Shown here piece by piece: positions 60,203-63,797 of a stretch of DNA of 64,000 bases. The stretch is from Natronomonas marina (GTDB lineage Archaea > Halobacteriota > Halobacteria > Halobacteriales > Haloarculaceae): the NCBI RefSeq assembly GCF_024298905.1, contig NZ_CP101154.1, positions 3,038,001-3,102,000 on the forward strand, in the 5' to 3' direction. Made by a program: the position numbers and the translations under genes. Under the pieces are notes generated by a model. That model was not told the DNA's origin. It did not search any database and saw only the letters and a program-made list of their open reading frames with translations. Within the stretch, counting starts at the first letter, position 1. Every line of letters begins with the position of its first letter.

Positions 60203-60862
60203 TTAGCGGACGCGGCCGGCCAGCAGGCCGACGAAGCCCAGCGCGAACGTCTCGTAGCTCCGCGCCTCGGTCCGGTCGACCAGGGCCGTCCGGGAGGCGT
60301 CGACGCGTTCCGACAGGGGTTCGTCGGGCCGGCCGAACGGCGCCCGGAGGACGGCGCCGGGGCCGCTCCCGGGCGCGCCGGCGGCGACGAACCCCCGGAA
60401 CAGCGGGTTCAGCGGCCGCCCAAGCGGGTCCTCGGTCACCGTCGCGTCCATCAGCGCGACCCGGCCGCCCGTCCCGACGAGGTCACACCAGTCGTCGACG
60501 ACGGCGTCGGGCGCATCGAACAGCCCGCAGACGAAGGTGGCGAGGACGGCGTCGGCCGCCGCGACCGGGGGGCGGGTGGCGTCGCCGCGAACGACGGCGA
60601 CGTTGTCGTAGGCGGCCGCGCGGCGCCGGGCGCGGGCGAGCAGCGGTCCCGTGAGGTCGACGCCGACGACGCGGCCGCCGGGGCCGACCCGCTCGCGGAG
60701 GTACGGGAGGTTCGCGCCGGTGCCACAGCCCATCTCGACGACGGTGTCGCCGGGTCTGGCGACCCGCCGGGCGGCGGCGCGGCGCCACCCGCCGACGCCG
60801 GGCGCGGTTGCGACGCGGTCGTAGAGGGCCGCCCACCGGCCGTAGAACTCCGCTATCGACAT
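60203..60862 (-). CDS. Class I SAM-dependent methyltransferase (UbiE-like)
   Basis: A 219-residue protein; ATG at 60862 shares one base with the stop of the upstream regulator gene. Motif I VVEMGCGTGANLPYLRE, then RVVGVDLTGPLLARARR and VVRGDATRPPVA; YGRWAALYDRVA at the start recalls UbiE/MenG. Substrate unknown. Third gene of an overlapping dcd-thiR-methyltransferase operon. Confidence 0.87.
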   Translation of the reverse strand: MSIAEFYGRWAALYDRVATAPGVGGWRRAAARRVARPGDTVVEMGCGTGANLPYLRERVGPGGRVVGVDLTGPLLARARRRAAAYDNVAVVRGDATRPPVAAADAVLATFVCGLFDAPDAVVDDWCDLVGTGGRVALMDATVTEDPLGRPLNPLFRGFVAAGAPGSGPGAVLRAPFGRPDEPLSERVDASRTALVDRTEARSYETFALGFVGLLAGRVR

Positions 60863-61758
60863 CAACTGAGGTCCCGGACGGTCGCGGCGACCGCGCTCGC
60901 GTCGCCCCCCAGCAGGTAGCAGACCGGCTCGATGCCGAACCCGCCGGTCTGGTAGAGCACGTCGACCTCGGGGTCGGCCTCCAGCGCCGCCGCGACGGCG
61001 GCTTCGAGGTCGGCCTCGGGGTCGAACTCGGCGGTCGCGTGGCCCGCTGCCTCCAGGTCGGCCAGCAGGTCGGGGTCGTACCGGACGTTCAGCGCCGCGC
61101 GTGCGGGACTGCCGGCCGCCCGCGCCGCCAGCAGGACCGACGCGACGTGCTCGGAGACGCCGAACTCCGGCTCTCCGGGGACCGTCGCCCGGCCCTTCAC
61201 GTCGAGGATGCGGCCCGGAACCGCCGCCACGTCGTCGATGGTCGTCGCGTCGGGCAGCGCCTCGACGAGGTTCGCGCCGACCGCCGGGATGAGCGCCGCG
61301 AAGCCGCTCGTGTTCTCCAGGGTGCGGACGCCCCGCCGGACCGACGAGCGGACCCGCTCGGTCGTCCGCAACTCCCCCTCCGGGTCGTGGACGTCGAAGG
61401 TGCCCTCGTACTCGGACAGCGGCGGGAAGGCGGCCTCGTGGAGTCGGGCCAGCACGTCGCCGCGTTCGAGCCGTCGGATCAGCACCTCGGCCTCGACGAG
61501 CGCCTGCACGCGACTCACGTCCCCGCTGGCCAGCCCATCGGCGAGGGCGTCGACCAGTTCGCTGACCCGCTCGTCGGCCGCCAGCTCGGCGTTGATCTCG
61601 ACCTCGCCGTGGGCGTACTTCGAGACGGCGCTCTGGCTGATGCCGAGCAACTCGGCGACCTCGCTCTGTGTGAGTCCGCGGTCGCGCAACTCGCCGGCCA
61701 GAAGCGACCGGAAGGTCGGCAGGAACTCCTCGACGACGACCTCCTCGACGAACTTCAT
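60862..61758 (-). CDS. thiR: ThiR-like thiamine-responsive regulator (HTH + ThiN)
   Basis: A 298-residue protein from ATG at 61758. N-terminal Cro/C1-type [35 protein letters not shown] (about 24-60). The C-terminal half is a ThiN domain (thiamine-phosphate synthase fold): [80 protein letters not shown]. This fusion is the archaeal ThiR, whose ThiN part senses thiamine phosphates instead of catalysing. ATGA overlap with dcd. A target, thi4, is in the window. Confidence 0.85.
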
Positions 61759-63797
61759 CGGTCCACCTGCTCGCCCCCGAACTCCTCGTCGGACTGGATG
61801 CGGGAGGCCTGCGGACCCGCCTGGCCCTGGTACTTCGAGCCGCGCTCCTCGCCGTAGGGGCGCTCGGCCGGGTTCTTCAGTTCGGTGAACGTCAGCTGTG
61901 AGATTCGCATCTCCGGCGTCAGTGCGACCGGCGCGGTGCCGAGGTTCGACAGTTCGAGCGTAATCTGTCCCTCGTACCCGGGGTCGCACAGACCTGCAGT
62001 GTTCGAGAGGAATACACCTCCCCGTCCTCCAAGGAAGTTCTCGATGGTCTTCCCGTTGGGCTGTACTTCGAGGTCGTACGTCGGTTCTACGCGGTCGGTC
62101 TCTTCAACTTCGACCACTTCCTCGAAGCGGACCTCCTCCTCGAGAATCTGATCGAGTCGCGTCGTGTCAACACCTGCGTCGGCATAGGCGTCTCGGAACC
62201 GCCGGAGCGTTTCCCGCTTGACCGCGTCGTACTCTTCGTTTTCGACGTTCGAAATGCTGGACGGCGAGGCGTATCCCATCGCTTCTGCAGCGTCGGACAT
62301 CGTCATCCCGGCTCTCCGACGATATTGACGTAAAAGTTCGCTCGGAGTCGGGACGTACTGTCCCCGCTTGTGCGGTTCGGTAGCGGTGTCGACTGCCCAC
62401 TCGGTACCCTCGTTGTGAACGTCGCTCGGCTCGATGTACACCTCCCGTTCGCGGCCGTACACCGAGCTGTGGAGTCCCAGTCTGGCTGCGAGATACATCG
62501 CTTCGTTTGCCAGTGATTCGTTTGCGGTGTAAAGCGTATCCCGCGAGTCGCGTCGACAGCCGTCCCCGTCGAGAAGGCCCTCCAGCAGCGCTTCCAAAAC
62601 CGATTCGGACCAGTTCCAGCTTCGGTTAGGGATTCCCTTTTCGCCACCGGACCCGGCGAGCTGACGGAAAACTTTCGACCAGAGCGCCGAACAGACGGTG
62701 AGTCGGCCGACGCCGTCGTTCCTCTGTTGCCGATAGATGCTGGTGTCGTACCGTTCGAACCAGGCGGCGACCCGGTCGAGATACGCTTCGTTCTTGTTGG
62801 CAAACTGGACCTGCTTCCGTCGTGCCGACCCCTCTGCGATATAGAACCCCAGTACCCAACCGAACTCCGGCGTGACTTCGAGCTGGCGCGGGAGTTTAGC
62901 GTCGCTCTGCTTGAACGCGAGCTCTACATCGCCCGGTGCCTTCGCAGGGGAGATACAGGACAGTGGTGCGGCGTTGCGTGAGTCGTAGTGACGCCGTGAA
63001 ACCTGAGGGACGTCTTCATCCCACTTGACAGCTCCTAGACCGTCCGTCGCATATGCGATAACCTCCCCGTCACCTTCGAAAAGGGACACCAGATCGATTT
63101 CGGTTTCTTCGGTCGGGGAATCAGGCAGGCGTCCGGGGACCATCACCCGACTTCCCTCGGCTTCTTCACTGGGTAATCGAGTCACGCCTCCATCCTCGTC
63201 GACCGTGAACAGGTTGTGGTCCCTGGTCACCAGCACCTCCCGACCGGATTTCAATCGCACACGATAGATTCGCTTTGTCGGATTGGTGATATAGTCGGTG
63301 ACACGGTGAGTGCTCACTCGGAGCGTTTTCGGGTCGAACGAGACCGCGCGTGCCGGCCGCTCGTTTTCGACTATGTCACCGATTTCGTAGAACCCGAATC
63401 CGTCCTCCGGGGTCCAGAGGAACACCTCCTCGTCGTACGGGAGTGAGGCGTGCACCACGACCGCCAGCCGGCCCAGCGAGGAGCGTCCCTCGACGTGGGC
63501 GATGAGGTCCGGCGGAATCTCGACGCGCTCCTTCGTCGTCCCGAGCACGAAGTCGCCGGGATGGAGGATGAAGTCCTCGCCCTCCTCGACGTAGGTCTCG
63601 TCGACGTACTCGTCGACCTCCTGTTCGCTGTTGGGGTGGATACAGGGGATGTTGGTCCGCTGGAACTCGAGGAACTCCCGGCCCAGTCGGAGGTCGATGC
63701 TGGCCGGCTGAATCTGGAGTTCGGGGTCCGCCAGCGGCTCGACGACGAGGTCGCCGTCCGTCAGCCGCCGACGGATGTCCGCATCGGAGAGTATCAT
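61755..63797 (-). CDS. dcd: dCTP deaminase interrupted by an intein
   Basis: A 680-residue precursor from ATG at 63797. Extein part 1 (1-117, [20 protein letters not shown] to [15 protein letters not shown]) and part 2 (600-680, [20 protein letters not shown] onward) join to a 198-residue dCTP deaminase of normal length, hydrolysing dCTP to dUTP for dTMP synthesis. The 482-residue intein sits inside the active-site motif HA/TAG, so the enzyme is inactive until splicing. A TTTAAG box lies about 27 nt upstream (63822-63828). Confidence 0.95.
62001..63446 (-). other. Intein with LAGLIDADG endonuclease and embedded HTH
   Basis: 482 codons. Ser1 ([11 protein letters not shown], block A), block B with T-x-x-H in [21 protein letters not shown] helices in [15 protein letters not shown] and [13 protein letters not shown], and block [19 protein letters not shown]; it ends in Asn599 with Thr as the +1 residue. 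The residue before Asn is Ser (FLSN), not the usual His. Between the endonuclease and block F is a Cro/C1-type HTH ([30 protein letters not shown]). GC is lower than in the extein, pointing to transfer. Confidence 0.92.

Follow-up and report, generated by a model that had tools for sequence, protein, structure and literature searches.

A probable full-length homing intein in haloarchaeal dCTP deaminase with a repressor-type helix-turn-helix as its probable target-contacting accessory domain

The dCTP deaminase gene (dcd) of Natronomonas marina is split by an intein, which we analyzed within a window of 64,000 nucleotides (the whole stretch examined, taken from contig NZ_CP101154.1; positions refer to the window, and strand is given in brackets). 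We consider it likely that this element is a full-length homing intein of the haloarchaeal dcd ('dtd') type, in which a helix-turn-helix (HTH) serves as an accessory domain that adds contacts to the target DNA. The element is well conserved and of a known kind; its splicing residues show a single small oddity.

The dcd gene is located at 61755-63797 (-), where codon 117 directly precedes a 482-codon insert at 62001-63446 (-). The insert begins with S1, ends with N482, and separates VVHA from TAGLCD in dCTP deaminase; flank joining, domain profiles, and relatives identified it as an intein of 482 aa. The 117-aa N-extein (63447..63797, (-)) gave a match to TIGR02274 (dCTP_deam), and the C-extein, which starts with Thr+1 and is followed by the stop codon (61755..62000, (-)), was covered by matches to dCTP deaminase structures. 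Joining of the flanks restored an intact Dcd of 198 aa that matched TIGR02274 with E=2.9e-63. The insert boundaries and the 198-residue product, both proposed from the sequence alone in a first-pass annotation, were thereby found to be exact. A thiR-like gene (HTH_3 + ThiN; 60862..61758, (-)) lies outside the intein, and its start shares the ATGA at 61755-61758 with the dcd stop. The coupling of the two genes had also been raised in connection with the intein; the overlap is real, but the coupling is uninformative on the intein, since empty alleles show it equally. The two genes are adjacent in nearly all intein-free loci and likewise in most intein-bearing loci, and thiR is an ancestral neighbor in an old haloarchaeal synteny unrelated to the intein. 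A functional link of thiR specific to the dcd intein was ruled out on the same grounds. The source genome is intein-rich: 10 intein N-termini exceeded the curated cut-off, in rir1 (2), MCM (2), gyrB, rpolA'', DP2, RfcS, RtcB, and dcd.

The domain order of the intein was determined as the N-terminal half of the Hint splicing domain (Hint-N, aa 1-105; 63132..63446, (-)), a variable linker (aa 106-185), a LAGLIDADG endonuclease domain (aa 186-350; 62397..62891, (-)), an accessory domain with a Cro/C1 (lambda-repressor-like) HTH (aa 362-436; 62139..62363, (-)), and the C-terminal half of the Hint domain (Hint-C, aa 437-482; 62001..62138, (-)). The Intein_splicing and LAGLIDADG_3 profiles matched the insert above their curated cut-offs, Hint-N exceeded the cut-off of TIGR01445, and Hint-C was assigned by PF14890. 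LAGLIDADG motifs had been noticed in the insert in the first-pass annotation, and the match to PF14528 above cut-off bore this out. Both motifs with their catalytic acids are present: the first, LGFYIAEG (62829..62852, (-)), carries Glu205, which is Glu in 33 of 35 distinct dcd inteins, and the second (62559..62588, (-)) carries Asp293, which is retained in 35/35. In Foldseek searches, the nuclease domain matched I-DmoI and PI-TkoII, and the whole intein model matched PI-TkoII (1.4e-17), TliVMA (1.9e-14), and PhoVMA best among PDB entries.

Furthermore, the HTH was identified by both sequence and fold. Pfam searches with the intein gave HTH_31 (PF13560) at E=4.5e-9 and HTH_3 (PF01381) at E=2.7e-5, both above the curated cut-offs and both between the nuclease and block F; with the C-terminal 330 aa alone, HTH_31 was recovered at 1.6e-9. 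Structure modeling, which the first-pass annotation had recommended, was carried out with AlphaFold2 on an 18-sequence alignment and gave the helices typical of a Cro/C1 fold in this stretch with good local confidence, in a model of moderate overall quality (pLDDT 71.9, pTM 0.56) whose splice ends were poorly predicted. When the HTH stretch was modeled alone, Foldseek returned SinR, CapH, C.BclI, and DdrO with probability 1.00, but at E>=3.4e-3. The HTH profile gave one weak match only, CapH, among PDB sequences. These results indicate that the domain is a repressor-type DNA-binding fold of the Cro/C1 type; profiles, AlphaFold2, and Foldseek agreed with the earlier description of a domain resembling a phage-type repressor between the LAGLIDADG motifs and block F. 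The weaker Foldseek matches of the HTH (62139-62363) included the repressor Stl, whose structure was determined together with bound dUTPase. dUTPase is a fold relative of Dcd, and the match to Stl is probably a coincidence of the common HTH fold. Free-standing relatives of the HTH were weak matches only (best E 1.3e-5), so that a donor of the domain cannot be named. The nearest of them were haloarchaeal HTH proteins of ~180 aa (E about 1e-5), and in one such protein (L162:1504-2043 (+)) the C-terminal stretch was read as CBS domains.

The distribution of the intein was then surveyed. A dcd intein was present in 24 of the 391 haloarchaeal class genomes, representing 16 of 86 genera, and further loci were found besides; a scan of genome contigs yielded 17 full-length relatives with 59-83% identity. 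In the class-genome scan, the intein-bearing dcd reading frames were open. All 35 distinct dcd inteins that were aligned are full length and have kept the HTH, and the HTH profile (A2) matched all 24 intein-bearing genomes at E<=2.4e-32. A search of the 391 genomes with the N-terminal Hint part returned the same 24; the only addition was a distant match of 41% identity, located in a different long reading frame. No mini-inteins and no HTH-less versions were found at the dcd site in the 391 genomes. Nine residues, Ser1, Asn55, Thr74, His77, Asp293, Asp458, Glu469, Ser481, and Asn482, were invariant in all 35 sequences, and Thr+1 was present in all of the dcd-intein C-termini listed.

In the intein tree, the window sequence grouped with those of L009, L010, and L029 (98/94), a group spanning at least three families. 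In the extein tree, by contrast, the window sequence paired with L010 only (100/94), and L029 was placed with its own family (90/90). The window intein showed 77% identity to that of L010, a relative of the same genus, though the exteins were 95% identical, and it showed 83% identity to a Natronomonas intein. Its GC content was 59.6% vs 66.8% for the host gene. Taken together, the tree conflict, the identities, and the GC content indicate that the intein has in all probability moved horizontally, as a homing element would. A comparison of codons flanking the insertion site in 35 occupied and 30 empty alleles gave no clear co-conversion signal, a point that counts against the homing reading.

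We estimated the selection acting on each part of the intein. By substitution counts over 32 close, non-independent pairs of dcd inteins, dN/dS had nearly the same value in the HTH (0.157) and the nuclease (0.156), was higher in the linker (0.199), and was lowest in the Hint halves, at about 0.08 (0.08 for Hint-N and 0.077 for Hint-C); the HTH is thus under purifying selection equal to that on the nuclease. In the conservation profile, the recognition helix (aa 395-403, PSSISNVEN, with the family consensus KSSISNVEN; 62238..62264, (-)) was the most conserved HTH element, at 0.91 compared with 0.68-0.84 for the others. The catalytic Glu205 was replaced by Ala in only two of the 35 inteins, those of L023 and L048, and the L048 intein has GGG in its second LAGLIDADG motif as well. 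Residue N400 of the recognition helix, which by alignment we take to be the equivalent of the base-contacting Gln33 of the 434 repressor, was likewise changed in only 2 of 35 sequences, and these were the same two nuclease-dead copies. Their recognition helices were the most altered and jointly second most altered of the family (L048, 0.56; L023, 0.33), and their Hint domains were not outliers. The random chance of both N400 changes falling in the two dead copies is 1/595, for a position chosen post hoc and n=2. As N400 is altered exactly where the nuclease is dead, the HTH appears linked to the nuclease, and this pattern, seen in two sequences and noticed post hoc, would tie the HTH to homing over host regulation. 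It also makes the homing role of HTH domains testable, in that nuclease-dead copies alone have changed a DNA-contact residue. These results suggest that the HTH most likely adds DNA contacts for homing. The first-pass annotation had proposed that the HTH adds DNA-target specificity. DNA contacts for homing are the best supported part of this proposal, but the sign of the specificity effect may be wrong, since the accessory domain (ACD) of TliVMA made cleavage more promiscuous, not more specific (PMC8966425).

Two other functions were weighed for the HTH. It could be a true repressor, with the intein or its precursor binding the dcd-thiR region, repressing its own or its neighbor's expression and so limiting a toxic nuclease. 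The fold is that of repressors such as SinR and the C-proteins, the domain is under purifying selection, and a target spanning the insertion site would leave half of itself in the occupied gene, all of which would suit such a role. We nevertheless regard it as very unlikely: the changes of N400 link the HTH to the nuclease, empty alleles have thiR next to dcd just as occupied ones do, and the occurrence of HTH-type accessory domains in inteins of unrelated genes fits homing better. The first-pass annotation had also suggested binding to the intein's own gene, for which the analysis gave no support. A purely structural role, in which the domain would keep nuclease and Hint apart as a passive spacer without DNA binding, seems very unlikely. 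It is true that the ACD of TliVMA can be deleted with the Hint and nuclease folds undisturbed and the nuclease still cutting (PMC8966425). Against a spacer stand the recognition helix as the most conserved element of the HTH and a dN/dS as low as that of the nuclease, as a spacer should not keep DNA-facing residues. An accessory domain contributing DNA contacts for homing is the reading we prefer over both.

Next, we asked how unusual the splice residues are, by reading about 60 intein ends in related genomes. With Ser1, the C-terminal Asn482, and Thr+1, the dcd inteins have the nucleophiles of class 1. The class 1 block B Thr-x-x-His (T74 and H77; 63216..63227, (-)) and the block F Asp (D458) are kept in 35/35 in the 35-sequence alignment. 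A penultimate His is common in class 1 inteins and not obligatory; in the dcd inteins it is absent, and block G (GGVFLSN, then T; 62001..62024, (-)) ends in Ser481-Asn482 before Thr+1 in all 35 sequences. Block F (62025..62081, (-)) has Asp458 at F:4 and Glu469 at F:13. Its Glu, in E-N-F, is also found in gyrB inteins (DENF) and in PI-TkoII (ENFL), and the rpolA'' inteins have ETF; E-N in block F is thus ordinary. The penultimate Ser was rarer than E-N, and it recurs in the RtcB intein of the source genome, which ends in VVSN followed by C. Of the non-canonical splice block described in the first-pass annotation, the rarer Ser-Asn is real, but the E-N is not unusual, occurring as it does in gyrB and PI-TkoII. 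The RtcB intein (L082:1500-2915 (+)) gave only a weak LAGLIDADG match, and its nuclease may be degenerate. The DP2 polymerase intein of the same genome (L084:1105-2655 (-)) ends in Gln (SARQ, then C), not Asn, and inteins at the DP2 site in related genomes likewise have Gln last, as Lys-Gln.

A further departure was found at motif NX. Inteins with Ser1 and Thr+1 normally have a histidine after Arg or Lys in this motif, with rare replacements by Tyr or Asn (PMC10189870). PI-TkoII has this histidine (IRH), as do most of the gyrB and rpolA'' inteins that were examined. The corresponding position in the dcd inteins reads I-x-N, in which Asn55 is invariant (35/35) and is preceded by T, E, R, or I; in the window intein it is I-T-N-P (aa 53-56; 63279..63290, (-)), and I-R-H of PI-TkoII aligned to this I-T-N. 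Among the histidines with a known role in assisting splicing, block B His77 is the sole one left in the dcd inteins. As the NX, F:13, and penultimate histidines are all absent, slow or conditional splicing is possible. The loss of three assisting histidines is itself conserved, which makes these inteins a useful natural test of the residues that Ser1 inteins need.

These absences, together with the loss of the catalytic Glu205 in two relatives, could be taken as signs of a degenerating intein, a relic impaired in splicing and marked as such by its S-N and E-N ends. This is the least likely of the readings considered, as none of the 35 distinct inteins, which come from many genera, departs from Ser481, Glu469, Asn55, or the nucleophiles, selection is strictest on the Hint halves (dN/dS about 0.08), the dcd reading frames are open, and there are precedents for both S-N and E-N. 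Because its residues are invariant across the family, the splice block is a fixed variant, not a product of decay; decay of the splice block was ruled out by the same invariance. It has also to be considered that the HTH makes splicing conditional, such that Asn cyclization changes when the precursor binds DNA, and Dcd production or nuclease release becomes responsive to the target. The direct joining of the HTH to the C-terminal Hint half, and a splice site without assisting histidines that may be slow, are compatible with this. We give it a very small chance, given that the Hint fold was undisturbed by ACD deletion in TliVMA. Very unlikely, too, is a combined form in which the dcd inteins represent a fixed variant of oxyester splicing with one histidine, whose slow last step would be compensated or gated by the HTH next to Hint-C, with target DNA controlling splicing.

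The following scheme is proposed for the homing intein with an accessory HTH. The domain order, the fold, the conservation of catalytic residues, the purifying selection on the HTH at the level of the nuclease, and the horizontal movement were computed; the splicing activity, the cleavage, and the DNA target of the HTH are what we infer. The Hint domain would excise itself by a Ser1/Thr+1 oxyester pathway, in which T74 and H77 would aid the activation of Ser1. After transfer to Thr+1, Asn482 would cyclize without a penultimate His, releasing the 198-aa Dcd. The LAGLIDADG nuclease would cut intein-free dcd at the VVHA/TAG codons, and the intein gene would then be copied in. The Cro/C1 HTH would act as an ACD, as at that position in archaeal homing inteins, and would make sequence-specific contacts to dcd beyond the nuclease footprint, through which DNA binding and homing would work.

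The allele itself had probably already been catalogued. Soucy 2014 (PMC4071816) reports a 'dtd' intein in halobacterial dCTP deaminase as a new allele, and this allele agrees with the window intein in host gene and archaeal class; the comparison with catalogued inteins suggested in the first-pass annotation is answered to this extent. No account of the HTH or of the splice residues (penultimate serine) of a dCTP deaminase intein was found in the freely available literature covered. Class 2 inteins (Mja KlbA type) resemble the dcd inteins in that all of them have Ser at the penultimate G:6 (PMC4031507). They differ in having Ala1 and Cys+1, and with Ser1 and Thr+1 the dcd inteins are not class 2.

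The HTH had been presented in the first-pass annotation as an unusual extra domain. This did not hold, since the accessory domains of TliVMA and PI-TkoII resemble HTH proteins (PMC8966425) and other inteins of the source genome carry HTH-type domains. The first MCM intein (L080) and the gyrB intein (L081) of this genome both have LAGLIDADG and HTH_3/HTH_31 matches above the Pfam cut-off, as does the dcd intein; both end in His-Asn, unlike the Ser-Asn of the dcd intein. The gyrB intein shares E-N-F in block F with the dcd intein but has its one HTH before the main LAGLIDADG match. In the first MCM intein (L080:1792-3378 (+)), two HTH_3 stretches (combined E 2.5e-15) form a tandem HTH accessory domain between nuclease and Hint-C; the HTH of the second MCM intein is weak. 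In related genomes, the C-terminal parts of 49 inteins were searched, and HTH_3 was found in 10 and HTH_31 in 10 at E<=0.01. An HTH unique to the dcd intein was ruled out by these HTHs in other inteins of the source and related genomes. With the TliVMA and PI-TkoII precedents, they place the HTH among accessory domains of a known, ordinary kind.

PI-TkoII (PI-PkoII; PDB 2cw7) is closest to the dcd intein in both fold (1.4e-17) and sequence (2.2e-11), and it shares E-N-F in block F and an HTH-like ACD. It differs in its NX motif (R-H vs T-N), an extra domain IV, and its host gene, a DNA polymerase of a hyperthermophile. TliVMA (PDB 7qss) has the same order of Hint-N, LAGLIDADG, HTH-like ACD, and Hint-C (Foldseek E=1.9e-14), and in both TliVMA and PhoVMA the accessory domain lies between the nuclease and Hint-C (PMC8966425). 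TliVMA without its ACD bound DNA less well, and its cleavage was altered (PMC8966425). TliVMA differs from the dcd intein in host gene, in having Cys1, and in that its ACD is HTH-like and was not matched to a Cro/C1 Pfam family in this analysis. With the dcd inteins, a family of natural homing inteins is seen to have a bona fide repressor-type HTH as the accessory domain. They are a natural counterpart of the arrangement made artificially by Beyer and Iwai, in which a 434-repressor domain was grafted onto TliVMA at the ACD site (PMC8966425).
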